From Bacteroidia bacterium (GTDB lineage: Bacteria; Bacteroidota; Bacteroidia; Cytophagales; Cyclobacteriaceae), in the NCBI GenBank assembly GCA_030426345.1, contig JAUHYU010000004.1, positions 1 to 64,000 on the forward strand: DNA of 64,000 nt, in the 5' to 3' direction. The translations under genes and the position numbers were made by a program. This document shows positions 30,564 through 45,814 of this stretch, piece after piece; the first letter of the stretch is position 1, and every line of letters starts with the position of its first letter. The notes beneath the pieces are model-generated. The model saw only the letters and a list, made by a program, of their open reading frames with translations, was not told the origin of the DNA and ran no database searches.

Positions 30564-33500
30564 ATGATAGATAATGTCATTGCTTATTCTGTAAAGAATA
30601 AGCTGATCATTGCTCTGTTCACCCTCTCGATTGTAGCAGCGGGGATTTGGAGCATGACAAAAGTTCCCATTGATGCCGTACCTGACATCACAAATAATCA
30701 GGTTCAAGTCATTACTCAAGCTCCAAATTTAGGCACAGAAGATATAGAGCAGTTTGTAACCTATTCTGTAGAATTGGCTATGGCCAATTTACCAGGAGTC
30801 AAAGAGATTCGCTCGGTTTCCCGCTTTGGGTTATCTGTGGTGACCATTGTATTTGAAGATGATATGGGTACATATCTTCCTCGCCAGTTGGTTGCAGAAA
30901 AATTAACCGAAGTCAAAAACGAAATACCCAAAGGATTTGGAGAGCCAACCATTGGCCCCATTTCTACAGGCTTAGGGGAGATTTATCAATATACCTTAGA
31001 TGTTGCCCCAGAGTTTGAGAATACGTATTCAGCCTCTGATTTACGCACCATGCAAGACTGGATTATCAAAAGGCAAATGGCCATGGTTCCGGGAGTGGTT
31101 GAAGTCAATGCGTTCGGAGGTGATGTGAAGCAATATGAAGTGGCCATTAGCCCAGATGAACTGAAAGCAAGCGGACTTACCATCAATGATATTTTCAATG
31201 CTTTGGAAAAGAATAATAAGAATACCGGTGGGGCTTATATCGAAAAAGACCATCATGCCAATTTTATTCGTGGTGAAGGATTGGCAAGAAGCATTGAGGA
31301 CATTGAAAATATGTTGGTTAAAAACTCCAGTGGAATTCCGATCACGATCAAAAATGTGGCCAAAGTCCAGTTTGGAAAAGCCGTAAGATATGGTGCGCTC
31401 ACCAAAGATGGCAAAGGTGAAGCTGTTGGTGGAATGATTCTGATGCTCAAGGGTGGCAACTCAAATGACGTAATCAAGGCGGTAAAAAACAGGGTAGATG
31501 AAATACAGAAATCGCTTCCAGAGGGAATCAGCATAGAACCTTTTCTTGACCGTAGTTCCTTGATTGCCGAAACCACAGGAACGGTAAGCAACAATCTCGT
31601 CGAAGGGGCTCTTATCGTGATTTTTGTTTTGGTTTTTCTGCTAGGAAATTGGCGTGGGGGGATCATCGTAGCTTCCACCATCCCGCTTTCCCTCCTATTT
31701 GCTTTCATTATGATGAATGTATTCGATGTGTGGGCCAACCTCATGAGTTTGGGAGCTATTGATTTCGGAATCATCATTGACGGGGCTGTAATCATAGTAG
31801 AAGGAACGGTTTTTACCATACATCAACGGATCCTTAAACATAAGAATATCACATCAGCTGACCGAGATAATATTGCAGTAAAATCTGCATCAAAAATGAT
31901 GAGCTCAGCCTTTTTTGGTCAGTTAATTATTTTAATAGTATTCATACCTATACTGGTATTGCAAGGTGTGGAAGGAAAAATGTTCCAACCAATGGCACTA
32001 ACGTTTATGTTTGCCATGATTGGGGTCATGATTCTATGCCTCACTTATGTACCCATGATGTCGGCATGGTTTCTTCGTGCGAAAAAAAATGAAAAACTTT
32101 CCTGGGGTGACAAAGTAGTTCATTGGATAGAAGATGTTTATGTAAAAGCATTAGATCAAGTGCTAAAGAAAACCAAGTTGGTTTTGGCCTCAGCAGTGAT
32201 TCTATTAGGGCTGGCTATTTTCGCTTTCTCCCGAATGGGTGGTGAGTTTATCCCACAATTGGATGAAGGTGATATTGCTTTTCATGCCATTCTCAAACCA
32301 GGTAGCTCACTTTCTGAAACCATTGCTACAACTACAGAAATAGAGAAAATTATAAAAGCAGAATTTCCGGAAGTCATACACGTACTGAGCCGCATAGGTG
32401 TGGCAGATGTTCCCACTGACCCCATGCCCATGGATATTGCAGATTCTTTTATCATACTAAAACCTAAAGATGAATGGGTTTCGGCTTCATCTAAAGAAGA
32501 ATTGGTGGATAAAATAAAAGCAGCTATAAGCCGTGTCCCGGGAGTAAATTTAGAATTTACACAACCTATTGAAATGCGCTTTAATGAATTGCTCACTGGG
32601 GTAAGAGAAGATATCGCTGTAAAACTCTTTGGTGAAGATTTGGATGTTTTGGCTACCAAGGCTGAAGAAATGGGAAAAATCATTTCCACAGTTGAGGGAG
32701 TGGCCGATATGAAAGTAGAAGCCACCAGCGGCTTACCGCAGATTACGGTCAACTACAACCGCTCCAAACTGGCTCAGTATGGTCTTATTATTGCTGATTT
32801 AAACACTATTGTACAATCAGCCTTTGCTGGAGCAGAAGCCGGAGTTATTTTTGAGGGTGAGAAACGCTTTGACCTTGTAGTCAGACTCGATCAGAAACAT
32901 CGAAAGAGCATAGAAGACATCAAAGGCATCTATATTAACCTTGCCAATGGAGCGCAAATTCCCCTCAAGGAAGTCGCTGAAATAAGCTATCAGTCTGGCC
33001 CCATGCAAATTAGCAGGGACAATACCAATCGCAGGACCTATGTCGGAATAAACGTTCGTGGGAGAGATATTAAATCTCTTGTGACCGAGGTTCAACAAAA
33101 ATTGGATGCAGAATTGGATTTATCACCAGGCTATTACATCAGATATGGAGGTGCTTTTGAAAACCTAGAGCGTGCTACCAAACAATTGAAAGTGGTAGTT
33201 CCCGTAGCACTTGGCCTCATATTCATTTTCATATTTTTTGCATTAAAATCCCTGAAACAAACTGTGATGATTTATATAGCCATTCCCTTAGCGGCAATTG
33301 GTGGTATATTTTCATTGTGGATTAGGGACATGCCTTTCAGTATTTCGGCAGGCGTTGGCTTCATTGTCCTTTTTGGTGTTGCTGTTCTCAATGGACTGGT
33401 GCTCATTAGTGGCTGGAATGAATTGAAAGAGGAAGGCTCCACAGACCTTGGTGAACGTATCAGGAATGGCGCCAAAAGAAGAATAAGGCCAATACTGTTA

Positions 33501-34946
33501 ACAGCTCTTACGGATATTTTAGGGTTTTTGCCAATGGCCATATCCACTTCTGCCGGAGCCGAAGTTCAGCAGCCTTTGGCTACAGTGGTGATTGGCGGCA
33601 TGATCACAGCTACATTGCTTACTTTATTTATTCTACCCATACTTTATAGATCAGTCGAAATGAGAAGCAATAAAGCATTACGTCCCAGTATCTTATCAGT
33701 AATAACTTTACTGTGTCTTGTCTCTTTTTTCTCAACTTCTGGAGTGAGAGCGCAAGATTCATCTAGCAAAAATATTTCCGAATTGTCGCAAGCTTTGGAA
33801 ATTGGCCTTGCTAATAATGGTTATGTGAGATCTGCCAAATCGAACATTGAACTACAAGAGCATGGAAAAAAGAGGGCTTTTAACCCACAGAAAACAGATG
33901 TGGGGGTTCAGTATGGTCAGTACAGTAGCTTTGAAGATGATTTTGCATTTAACATTAGTCAAAATTTTGAATTTCCTACTGTTTACTCCAAGCGGCGAAA
34001 ATTAGCTGATGAGAAAATATCTGGTAGAGAGCAGCAGCTCGCAGTGGCTGAAAATGAGCTGACAATGAATATTCAGCAAGCTTGGTTCCAATTAGCCTTT
34101 CTAATGGAAAAAGAAAAATTGCTTAGCTATCAGGATAGCATTTACAGACGTTTTTTGCATGCAGCCACAATTCGGTATGAAACGGAAGCAACGAGCTATT
34201 TGGAAAAGGCATCTGCTGAAACAAGCGTTCTGGATATTCAAAACGAACAAAAGATGGTTGAAGCTGATATTGCCATTCAGCAAAATCAGCTTCGCATTTT
34301 ATTGAATGACACCATTGACCGGAAATTCATACCAAAATCCATGGAAAAAAAGCCCATTATTGACTTAACAGAGCAGTTAGAGATAGTTAATAATCCATCA
34401 CTAGCACTGATAAAACAGCAAATCAAAATTGAAAACGCCAAAAAGGAAGTTACCTCGGCTAAAATGCTCCCCGATATTTCAATTGGATACTATAACCAGT
34501 CCCTCATTGGAAATCGCACGTCTGACGGTGGTTTTGCCACTTCATCCGACAGGTTCAACAGCATTCAGGCAGGCATAAGCATTCCACTGTTTTTTGGCGC
34601 TTACAAGGCTGATATCAATACCGCTAAAATCAAAACAGACATTGCTGAGACTAATGCAAAATACTTTGAAACCGTCATTAGAGGAAAGCATGATCAACAA
34701 TTGCAAAATGTGCTGAAGTTCAAAAGCAGCTTGGACTATTACCGCGAAAAAGCGGTACCACAGGCTGACCTGATTATTAGAAATGCACAAAAAAGTTTTG
34801 AAAATGGCGCTATTAGCTACGTAGAATATTTTCAAAATCTCAATCAGGCTTTGGACTTAAAATTCAACTATCTAAATACACAAAACGGATATAATCAGGC
34901 ACTTATCAGCCTTGAATACCTAATTGGAAATACCACTTATAATTAA
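30564..34946 (+). CDS. CzcA-type heavy-metal RND pump fused to a TolC-like outer-membrane factor
   Basis: 1460 residues. Residues 1-1035 are a complete CzcA/CusA pump: VPIDAVPDITNNQVQ at the N-terminus, proton-relay DFGIIIDGAVIIVE near 400, periplasmic loops and twelve membrane spans. Residues about 1063-1460 are a full-length outer-membrane factor with long amphipathic helices. Between them, at 1040-1063, sits a signal-peptide-like stretch (ILSVITLLCLVSFFS then SGVRAQ). The loop NELLTGVREDIAVKLFG lacks the Cu-type methionines, pointing to Zn/Co/Cd/Ni. RND-OMF fusions of this length are common in Bacteroidota. Six bases separate its stop from the adaptor gene. Confidence 0.92.
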   Translation: MIDNVIAYSVKNKLIIALFTLSIVAAGIWSMTKVPIDAVPDITNNQVQVITQAPNLGTEDIEQFVTYSVELAMANLPGVKEIRSVSRFGLSVVTIVFEDDMGTYLPRQLVAEKLTEVKNEIPKGFGEPTIGPISTGLGEIYQYTLDVAPEFENTYSASDLRTMQDWIIKRQMAMVPGVVEVNAFGGDVKQYEVAISPDELKASGLTINDIFNALEKNNKNTGGAYIEKDHHANFIRGEGLARSIEDIENMLVKNSSGIPITIKNVAKVQFGKAVRYGALTKDGKGEAVGGMILMLKGGNSNDVIKAVKNRVDEIQKSLPEGISIEPFLDRSSLIAETTGTVSNNLVEGALIVIFVLVFLLGNWRGGIIVASTIPLSLLFAFIMMNVFDVWANLMSLGAIDFGIIIDGAVIIVEGTVFTIHQRILKHKNITSADRDNIAVKSASKMMSSAFFGQLIILIVFIPILVLQGVEGKMFQPMALTFMFAMIGVMILCLTYVPMMSAWFLRAKKNEKLSWGDKVVHWIEDVYVKALDQVLKKTKLVLASAVILLGLAIFAFSRMGGEFIPQLDEGDIAFHAILKPGSSLSETIATTTEIEKIIKAEFPEVIHVLSRIGVADVPTDPMPMDIADSFIILKPKDEWVSASSKEELVDKIKAAISRVPGVNLEFTQPIEMRFNELLTGVREDIAVKLFGEDLDVLATKAEEMGKIISTVEGVADMKVEATSGLPQITVNYNRSKLAQYGLIIADLNTIVQSAFAGAEAGVIFEGEKRFDLVVRLDQKHRKSIEDIKGIYINLANGAQIPLKEVAEISYQSGPMQISRDNTNRRTYVGINVRGRDIKSLVTEVQQKLDAELDLSPGYYIRYGGAFENLERATKQLKVVVPVALGLIFIFIFFALKSLKQTVMIYIAIPLAAIGGIFSLWIRDMPFSISAGVGFIVLFGVAVLNGLVLISGWNELKEEGSTDLGERIRNGAKRRIRPILLTALTDILGFLPMAISTSAGAEVQQPLATVVIGGMITATLLTLFILPILYRSVEMRSNKALRPSILSVITLLCLVSFFSTSGVRAQDSSSKNISELSQALEIGLANNGYVRSAKSNIELQEHGKKRAFNPQKTDVGVQYGQYSSFEDDFAFNISQNFEFPTVYSKRRKLADEKISGREQQLAVAENELTMNIQQAWFQLAFLMEKEKLLSYQDSIYRRFLHAATIRYETEATSYLEKASAETSVLDIQNEQKMVEADIAIQQNQLRILLNDTIDRKFIPKSMEKKPIIDLTEQLEIVNNPSLALIKQQIKIENAKKEVTSAKMLPDISIGYYNQSLIGNRTSDGGFATSSDRFNSIQAGISIPLFFGAYKADINTAKIKTDIAETNAKYFETVIRGKHDQQLQNVLKFKSSLDYYREKAVPQADLIIRNAQKSFENGAISYVEYFQNLNQALDLKFNYLNTQNGYNQALISLEYLIGNTTYN

Positions 34947-36182: not shown

Positions 36183-37058
36183 ATGGGACACGATCATGCT
36201 CATCATCATTCAGGCAAGAACCTGAAAATTGCCTTTTTCCTCAACCTTGGATTTACCATACTGGAATTTTTTGGTGGGGTATATGTGAACAGTATTGCGA
36301 TTATTTCCGATGCCGTTCATGATCTGGGCGATAGCCTATCGCTCGGCCTGTCTTGGTATTTGGACAAAAAATCGAAGCAAGGAGCTACGTCAAAATTCAG
36401 TTTTGGGTATTCCCGATTTTCCCTTCTCGGAGCATTGATCAATTCATTGGTGCTTATTGGCGGTTCGGTTTATGTGATGAGCGAGGCCATTCGCAGGATT
36501 ATGGCACCAGAGGCATCAGATGCCAATGGGATGATTGTATTTGCCATCATTGGGGTATTGGTCAATGGATACGCAGCATATAAACTCAGCGGTGGTAAAT
36601 CCCTGAATGAAAAAGTGGTTTCGTGGCATTTGATAGAAGATGTTTTGGGCTGGGCCGCAGTTTTGGTGGTGGCGATTATCCTGAAATTTTATAACAATCT
36701 TTATCTCGATCCTGCGCTTTCCCTGCTCATCACGGTATATATTCTTTGGAACGTCACCAAGCGATTGAAAGAAACGCTTTTCGTTTTCTTGCAAGGTGTT
36801 CCGGAAGGTGTAAGTCTGAATTCCATCGAAAAGGAACTGCTCTCTATTGAGCATATAGATTCTTTGCACCACAGCCACATCTGGTCACTTGATGGAGAAC
36901 AGCATGTTTTTACAACTCATGTTAAGCTTAAGTCAATCAATGACTTAAACGAACTATTGAAAATAAAGAATGAGATAAAATCCACCCTGAAACTATACCA
37001 CTTTGAGCATTACACGGTAGAAGTAGAACTGGACAAAGAAACATGTGGGTTAGCTTGA
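36183..37058 (+). CDS. Cation diffusion facilitator (CzcD/ZitB-like)
   Basis: 291 residues, six membrane spans, His-rich N-terminus (GHDHAHHHSGK). Metal-transport residues: IISDAVHDLGDSLSLG (HxxxD in TM2) and HLIEDVLGWAAVL (HxxxD in TM5), the pattern of Zn/Cd/Co exporters of the CDF family. The C-terminal cytoplasmic domain contains HHSHIWSLDGEQHVFTTHV. It exports zinc-like ions by proton exchange into the periplasm, from which the RND system can complete removal. Confidence 0.93.
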   Translation: MGHDHAHHHSGKNLKIAFFLNLGFTILEFFGGVYVNSIAIISDAVHDLGDSLSLGLSWYLDKKSKQGATSKFSFGYSRFSLLGALINSLVLIGGSVYVMSEAIRRIMAPEASDANGMIVFAIIGVLVNGYAAYKLSGGKSLNEKVVSWHLIEDVLGWAAVLVVAIILKFYNNLYLDPALSLLITVYILWNVTKRLKETLFVFLQGVPEGVSLNSIEKELLSIEHIDSLHHSHIWSLDGEQHVFTTHVKLKSINDLNELLKIKNEIKSTLKLYHFEHYTVEVELDKETCGLA

Positions 37059-37065
37059 GCAGCTA

Positions 37066-37101
37066 AAAAGCCTTTAAAATCCATGGATTTTAAAGGCTTT
37101 T
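37066..37101. terminator. Perfect 36-bp palindrome made of two opposed motif copies; bidirectional terminator candidate
   Basis: Two copies of the dispersed motif meet head to head at CCATGG. Each arm is AAAAGCCTTTAAAATCCA. It lies 7 bases after the CDF stop and 36 bases from the stop of the convergent esterase gene. T runs flank the stem in both directions, which fits termination of both transcripts. Confidence 0.75.
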
Positions 37102-37137: not shown

Positions 37138-38049
37138 CTATCCCATTTCAGAATGAGTTTCAATAAAATTTATAATTATTTCTCGATATACACTTTTTTC
37201 GGAGAAAGACATATCCCTCCACAGCCCTCCATGTGAAAGGTTGTAGGAATAAACCACTTGCACATCTCTAAACTCGGTTTCCCGAATTCGCTCTTCGAAA
37301 AGTTTTGTGTAATTATATAAATCATTGTCGCAGACGACTAGCATTGGAATGGATAGATTGTCAAGATAAGCTATCGGTGATGCTCCTTTGAAACCATCTA
37401 CTCTATCTCCAAAAACGGCTTCTACATGTAATTTGGCGAGTTCCGGTCTGCCTCCATTTAAGAGTACATCATGATAATTTACTATATCATACGTCCCTGA
37501 AATCGGAATAACGCCTTTGAATATTTTAGTAGTAAGCCCTACTTTGTTCAAGTAGGTACTATCCAAACAAATCAACGCCGATAAATGTCCTCCTGAGGAA
37601 AAGCCGCCAATGAAAATATTATGCTTATCATACCCATACTTCGAAGCATTTTCATTTAGCCACCTAACAGATGCCGCCACATCTTCGATATGTTTGGGAT
37701 GTTGAATTCCCGAATTCAAAGTCGAATCCCTCCATATTGCCGGACTCAGCCTATGTCCGACGCTCGCAAAGGCTATTCCTTTCGCTGCAAACTTCCTAGC
37801 GAGATCCATTTCTTGATTTTTGTCGCCATAGGACCAAGCTCCCCCGCCAATCCAGATCAAGAGTGGCACTTCATCATTCTTGATCGGCAATACTAAGTTT
37901 AATCTTTGGAGGCTGTTATCAGAAATTAAATCCTTGCTCAAATAGGTCAGGTCGTTATATTCAACTATATCGTACCCGTCTTTCGTTTGACAAAATGAAT
38001 AATTTGAAATGAGAAACAAGGCAATTGATAAGAATATAATTTTATTCAT
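37138..38049 (-). CDS. Exported alpha/beta hydrolase (carboxylesterase type)
   Basis: About 303 residues with a signal peptide (IIFLSIALFLISNYSFCQ). Catalytic features: oxyanion region WIGGGAWSYGDK, GHRLSP, nucleophile elbow IGGFSSGGHLSAL, acid VVCDNDLYN and a histidine in SHGGLWRD. This is the BD-FAE/esterase_lipase fold used to remove acyl groups from polysaccharides or small esters. The start is the ATG at 38049; a longer reading adds a leader before the signal peptide. Confidence 0.85.
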   Translation of the reverse strand: MNKIIFLSIALFLISNYSFCQTKDGYDIVEYNDLTYLSKDLISDNSLQRLNLVLPIKNDEVPLLIWIGGGAWSYGDKNQEMDLARKFAAKGIAFASVGHRLSPAIWRDSTLNSGIQHPKHIEDVAASVRWLNENASKYGYDKHNIFIGGFSSGGHLSALICLDSTYLNKVGLTTKIFKGVIPISGTYDIVNYHDVLLNGGRPELAKLHVEAVFGDRVDGFKGASPIAYLDNLSIPMLVVCDNDLYNYTKLFEERIRETEFRDVQVVYSYNLSHGGLWRDMSFSEKSVYREIIINFIETHSEMG

Positions 38050-38385
38050 AATATCTATTTTAGTTGCATAAAAAGCATTATCGACCCAATTGCGCATAAA
38101 TATGTAATAGCGGCATCATGGATTTTTGATGGCTGTTCTTCAATTTCCAACTACAAAATACAGCAATGTGCTAACATATCCAATTTGTCCGAAATGCTAT
38201 TTGCCGTAAGTTTTTTGATATGGAGGGTATATGTTCAAAATCCATGGAATTTAGGGGCTTTTCCCTATTCAGATTTTCCCATAAGCACAAGAGAACCAAC
38301 GTTTGCATTTGGATACTAGCTAAAAGCTCGCACTAACTGTGATTTTTTCAGGCAACTGATGCCAATACTTTGAGGGTTCTTTTGA
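38050..38385. repeat. Intergenic region with diverged long repeat (family member C) and motif copies
   Basis: No gene is seen. A motif copy at 38116-38137 starts a segment of about 145 bases that ends at AAAATCCATGG (38236-38246), itself the start of another motif copy at 38242-38262. The segment has the same architecture as the repeats at 46877 and 48458 and sits 67 bases upstream of a minus-strand gene, as they do. Confidence 0.5.
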
Positions 38386-45774: not shown

Positions 45775-45814
45775 AAAAAATCCTTTAAAATCCATGGATT
45801 TTAAAGGATTTTTT
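45775..45814. terminator. Perfect 40-bp palindrome made of two opposed motif copies; bidirectional terminator candidate
   Basis: Each arm is AAAAAATCCTTTAAAATCCA, joined at CCATGG with no loop. It lies 4 bases after the last plus-strand gene and about 100 bases from the stop of the convergent SGNH gene. Here the GCC of the motif is replaced by TCC in both arms, so the symmetry has been kept by matched changes. Confidence 0.72.

Follow-up and report, generated by a model that had tools for sequence, protein, structure and literature searches.

A palindrome between convergent genes as a predicted bidirectional terminator built from an uptake-sequence-like motif in a Bacteroidota genome

Terminators that contain uptake sequences are well known in the Neisseriaceae (DUS) and the Pasteurellaceae (USS) (PMC1852404, PMC13020248). 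The uptake sequence is present in 54-57% of the strong terminators of Neisseria and in 22-23% of those of H. influenzae (PMC1852404). The ordinary inverted DUS pairs of Neisseria lie without overlap, and overlapping dyads have been reported in Simonsiella muelleri (PMC3630211). Within the Bacteroidota, according to the portions of the reports available to us, Riemerella can be transformed although pilus genes have not been detected in it, and a preference for its own DNA is described for R. columbina (PMC8459023, PMC7965970); these portions describe no uptake motif as having been found. That is, self-preference is known in the Bacteroidota, and in our partial literature search neither an uptake-type motif nor uptake-sequence terminators turned up for this phylum.

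In the present study we describe a palindrome from a member of the Bacteroidota which resembles the Neisseriaceae system (PMC1852404, PMC3630211, PMC13020248) in several respects; the organism was placed in this phylum by the relatives of its proteins. A motif is dispersed at about one copy per kb, its inverted pairs form predicted hairpin terminators, the pairs are enriched between convergent genes, and species or clade dialects exist around a common core. The system is unlike that of the Neisseriaceae in that the motif is unrelated in sequence, is longer (about 20 bp) and belongs to another phylum. It also differs from that of Neisseria in that the paired copies overlap by CATG and that the search for a type IV pilus ATPase was negative here.

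The palindrome at 37066-37101 and its flanking genes

The window, that is, the whole stretch of DNA that was analyzed, is 64,000 nucleotides long. The features of the locus are as follows.

36183..37058, plus strand: cation diffusion facilitator (CDF) gene, assigned by Pfam as a cation-efflux protein (PF01545); its predicted transcript end is the palindrome
37066..37101, no strand: palindrome, predicted bidirectional intrinsic terminator, 36 bp, exact; sequence AAAAGCCTTTAAAATCCATGGATTTTAAAGGCTTTT
37066..37085, plus strand: motif copy, 20 bp, AAAAGCCNNNAAAATCCATG, the left half of the palindrome
37082..37101, minus strand: second motif copy; CATG (37082-37085) is common to both copies
37138..38097, minus strand: esterase-like gene, assigned by Pfam as an alpha/beta hydrolase (PF20434/PF07859), convergent with the CDF gene
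45777..45812, no strand: second motif-pair palindrome, between convergent genes

The first-pass annotation had described a perfect 36-bp palindrome, made from two motif copies, lying between convergent genes, with the CDF stop 7 bases and the esterase stop 36 bases away. The palindrome is indeed exact, and the ORF ends at 37058 and 37138 agree with both distances. The second palindrome, at 45777-45812, differs from it by a compensated change in the arms, from G-C to T-A, and by a longer T run. When we searched the window for the palindrome arm allowing up to 3 mismatches, 18 matches were obtained, compared with 0.25 expected. A scan of viral contigs for the palindrome gave 0 matches. Among congeners, the sole closer homologue of the CDF protein was in one genome (G006, 51%), and the origin of the exact palindrome is therefore not traceable via synteny. 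In the same part of the window, a 1460-aa ORF (30564-34946) looks, to judge by its sequence, like an RND heavy-metal efflux pump that carries a fused outer-membrane-factor-like domain, and it adjoins the CDF gene and a gene for an adaptor.

The RNA of 37066-37101 is predicted to fold into a stem of 16 bp closed by a CAUG loop, with a tail of 4-5 U in each direction. For the 55-nt segment the fold energy is -21 to -23 kcal/mol, at a z-score of about -5.3. A stable hairpin followed by a U tract is the form of an intrinsic terminator. The hairpin had been considered loopless and hence unusual as a terminator, but this description has to be corrected, because the RNA has a tetraloop on a 16-bp stem, which is ordinary for terminators. 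The T tail of 37066-37101 is 4-5 bases long, and the site was not picked up by a generic terminator scan that set its threshold at 5 T behind the stem. From its sequence, we think that the palindrome probably stops transcription from both sides; the hairpin and U tail formed in either direction would cause RNA polymerase to stop.

The dispersed motif in the genome

The motif has the form (A)AAAAGCC-NNN-AAAATCCATG-RA and is about 20 bp long. Its matrix was obtained from 530 kb of sequence in whole blocks of 14-20 kb (the window and 24 loci); these were drawn from contigs for which the first listing had already given motif matches, but each block was taken entire, and the gene calls were made with a home-made hexamer scorer. 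The matrix consists of A, AAAA, GCC, three nearly free bases, AAAA, TCCATG, R and A, and the flanks carry no information. The two A-tracts of the motif sit 10 bp apart. In this respect the motif is like the USS of H. influenzae (AAGTGCGGT; PMC12616744), in which a core is accompanied by two discontinuous, helically phased AT-rich tracts. It is unlike the Pasteurellaceae USS in that its core differs (CATGGA in the USS direction) and in that it is far less conserved beyond one species.

In the 530 kb, sites scoring at least 11 bits numbered 640 (1.2/kb), compared with 11 for the reversed matrix. Coding sequence contained 457 of the 640 sites (71%), in all frames and on both strands; a protein-level motif was dropped as an explanation, since the sites fall in all reading frames. 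Per kb, the number of sites was lowest in coding sequence (0.97) and highest in convergent gaps (6.4), with divergent gaps (1.7) and tandem gaps (3.1) in between. In the whole genome, about 280 exact copies of AAAAGCCNNNAAAATCCATG were counted, with 0 for the reversed control, and the centre AAATCCATGGATTT and the half-site AAAAGCCNNNAAAATCCA had 136 and 299 copies, respectively. A copy number in the hundreds or thousands, far above chance, on both strands and at about 1/kb, is characteristic of uptake sequences and was found for the motif.

The spacing of the sites along the chromosome is near random, roughly following a Poisson distribution. The longest motif-free stretch exceeds the prediction of random spacing. 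The motif-free stretches, which are 5.6-7.7 kb long, are L068 2071-9784, L054 5200-12270, L108 2965-9512 and 39895-45525 of the window, and they are candidates for recently acquired DNA.

We also aligned motif sites with fetched stretches of G002, G003 and other congeners, several of the comparison genomes being fragmented and partly masked. In this small sample, 20 of the 25 alignments had no gaps, and at many of the aligned sites the sequence of the relative scores as non-motif. Since the alignments are mostly gap-free, the motif sites appear to come and go mostly by substitution. Uptake sequences likewise lie in both coding and intergenic sequence and arise by point mutation rather than insertion, and the motif agrees with this, as far as the small sample of alignments goes. 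In its behavior the parent motif resembles an uptake sequence, and by analogy with the known systems an uptake function is predicted. Transformation would then favor motif-carrying DNA, and the motif would be kept common in this way.

Motif-pair palindromes and gene ends

Across the genome, which comprises 5.1 Mb in 182 contigs, the full palindrome has 42 copies with up to 3 mismatches, and its reversed control has 0. In the 530 kb, the sole sharp spacing between paired motifs is a head-to-head arrangement at an offset of 15 with CATG in common, which was observed in 43 cases. We defined a strict palindrome as one with at least 16 of 18 pairs. By this definition, the unbiased 530 kb held 13 strict motif-centred palindromes, and coding sequence contained 0 of them.

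The palindrome might be regarded as an ordinary bidirectional terminator that resembles the other sites by chance or through compositional bias. Indeed, AAAAGCC...GGCTTTT is a common terminator shape, and two further long palindromes of the unbiased 530 kb are centred differently. We consider this explanation very improbable, however, because the CCATGG centre and the motif arms occur in 13 of the 15 strict 36-bp palindromes of the 530 kb, and because hundreds of single motif sites lie outside terminators whereas the reversed control is zero. That is, the genome-wide motif statistics contradict it.

From all fetched loci we collected 53 non-redundant strict palindromes: 21 between convergent genes, 24 between tandem genes, 6 between divergent genes and 2 at edges. 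The set of 53 includes loci picked by their similarity to the palindrome at 37066-37101, and the block set, with its 13 palindromes, is therefore the fairer sample. The convergent share was 5 of 11 among the unbiased intergenic cases (p=0.007) and 21 of 51 in the combined set (p=2e-7); the enrichment is significant because convergent gaps make up only 12% of the intergenic length. The convergent palindromes have the nearest stop 16-63 bases away. For the tandem palindromes, the median distance is 53 bases to the upstream stop and 162 to the next start, and 20 of the 24 are nearer to the upstream stop (p=0.0008). Thus the strict palindromes are placed as terminators are placed, that is, just past stops, with enrichment between convergent genes and with none in coding sequence. 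The first-pass interpretation as a terminator, for which this comparison had been proposed as a test, therefore survived it. The likeness to the paired-motif terminators of Neisseria stands as regards the convergent enrichment and the uptake-like parent motif; it does not extend to the arrangement of the copies, which overlap by 4 bases (CATG), nor to the placement as a whole, about half of which is tandem.

The three nearly free bases (NNN) bear on the hairpin itself. In pairs that had not been selected on complementarity, these bases were complementary at 53 of 78 positions when the pair was intergenic, compared with 16 of 51 when it was coding (p=4e-5); complementarity counts within the strict-palindrome set (n=53) are conditional on the selection of palindromes. 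As judged from sequence, this intergenic-only complementarity indicates that the hairpin is under selection outside genes alone.

These results can also be considered with regard to mobile repeats, that is, REP/BIME-like or MITE-like elements spread by transposition. Like REP/BIME, the palindromes are short, dispersed, intergenic and near gene ends; there are dozens of near-identical copies, and the strict ones are all intergenic. Unlike REP/BIME, most single copies of the motif lie in coding sequence and arise mostly by substitution. Furthermore, conservation ends at the motif, the arms vary between copies and yet remain complementary, the half-sites in coding sequence occur in all frames, and most of the alignments with relatives are gap-free and not missing a block. 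We therefore give mobile repeats very little credence, and the insertion of REP/BIME or MITE blocks was rejected in view of the coding sites, the gap-free alignments and the unconserved flanks.

With a simple scorer, 40 strong terminator-like hairpins were found behind 247 gene ends, compared with 1 in shuffled sequence. The motif was present in 15 of the 40 (37%), and within convergent gaps in 12 of 18. In being part of such hairpins the motif is like the Pasteurellaceae USS, although the 37% comes from a simpler scan than the figures for Neisseria and H. influenzae and the percentages thus differ in method (PMC1852404). At L070, four intergenic imperfect motif pairs (5587, 6708, 8034 and 9943) lie within 5 kb; their right halves are alike (e.g., GGAAATTTGATGCTTTTTCAAGA), possibly owing to local duplication.

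Taken together, we regard it as fairly probable that the palindrome is a bidirectional intrinsic terminator recruited from a species-specific, DUS/USS-like motif in the form of two overlapping head-to-head copies. The dispersed motif of about 20 bp, with the architecture and genomic behavior of DUS and USS, would be the raw material, and its two copies would have been recruited as the terminator of the convergent CDF and hydrolase genes.

Dialects, competence genes and a possible uptake system

The exact 20-mer pattern had about 280 copies here, 4 in G002, 1 in G003 and 0 in the rest of the 390 sampled genomes of the family. A looser pattern gave 1254 here, 125 in G002, 94 in G004, 68 in G003, 42 in G005 and 12-14 in G001 and G006, with 0-2 in the controls. 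The motif signal is thus almost confined to one species.

A de novo search in G004, which belongs to the same genus, revealed an abundant motif of its own with a matching layout, AAAAATnGCC...TTTTTCATGG. This motif has 288 sites in 155 kb (1.85/kb), compared with 20 for the reversed matrix, and its exact core AAAATnGCnnnTTTTTCATG has 54 copies in G004 and 0-1 in the other genomes of the genus. The motifs of this genome and of G004 both contain two A/T-tracts at a spacing of 10 bp. Uptake sequences are known for lineage-specific dialects with a common core, and the same was found here; by analogy with the Neisseriaceae (PMC3630211), the motif variants of this genome and G004 are species dialects. 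A weaker signal of the matching type is present in G002 and G003; the top seeds of the de novo search in G002 reflected codon structure. In the small samples of G001 and G006 that were searched de novo, a clear motif of the uptake type was not found, and an order-wide search with the G004-type pattern gave single matches only. In G004, tail-to-tail overlapping pairs of the dialect motif were observed (e.g., C439:8993-9018), and no long head-to-head palindromes were found in the 155 kb. Like the short T tail at 37066-37101 and the confinement of the strong motif to one species, this last result weighs against our reading.

The main rival holds that a nucleoid-associated or chromosome-organizing protein binds the motif, and that the palindromes are double sites which also serve as terminators. 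The phased A-tracts with the CATGG core are consistent with this, since A/T-tracts 10 bp apart, as in both dialects, suggest bent DNA. The higher density in intergenic than in coding sequence, the roughly Poisson spacing over the chromosome and the failure to find a type IV pilus ATPase point in the same direction. In contrast, some 70% of the sites are coding at about 1/kb, and the dialects of two congeners are sharply different; such coding density and dialects are unusual for nucleoid proteins and typical of uptake sequences. In addition, protein binding does not need the motif-free bases to be complementary. We therefore consider a nucleoid protein possible but unlikely.

To return to the uptake-like reading, ComEC and DprA are present in this organism. 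Both are widespread, including in bacteria without uptake sequences. A search for PF00437 (type IV pilus/secretion ATPase) gave none above the cut-off in the genomes examined. To our knowledge, all known receptors of DUS and USS, or candidates for them, are type IV minor pilins. Here, in view of the PF00437 result, an uptake receptor, if any, is not to be presumed a pilin, unlike in the Pasteurellaceae, where the USS receptor candidates are pilins. Pilus dependence holds in the two known families and may not be required for uptake sequences as such. According to the available portions of the reports, our organism is like Riemerella columbina, another member of the Bacteroidota with ComEC and DprA and without detected pilus genes; it is unlike it in that self-DNA preference has been observed in R. 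columbina (PMC7965970, PMC8459023), whereas the present case is known from sequence alone.

That this genus of the Bacteroidota, apparently without type IV pili, possesses a DUS-type system with species dialects which has been co-opted for termination is a proposal to which we give about even chances. The known uptake sequences and their terminators belong to the Neisseriaceae and the Pasteurellaceae, both proteobacterial and both type IV pilus-dependent. If the proposal is true, a dialect-forming, USS-shaped motif in this genus would mean an independent origin, that is, a third, independently evolved system of self-DNA recognition with a non-pilin receptor, and the co-option of uptake sequences as terminators would be a recurring event. 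The motif would also offer a direct sequence handle on the DNA receptor of transformation in the Bacteroidota.
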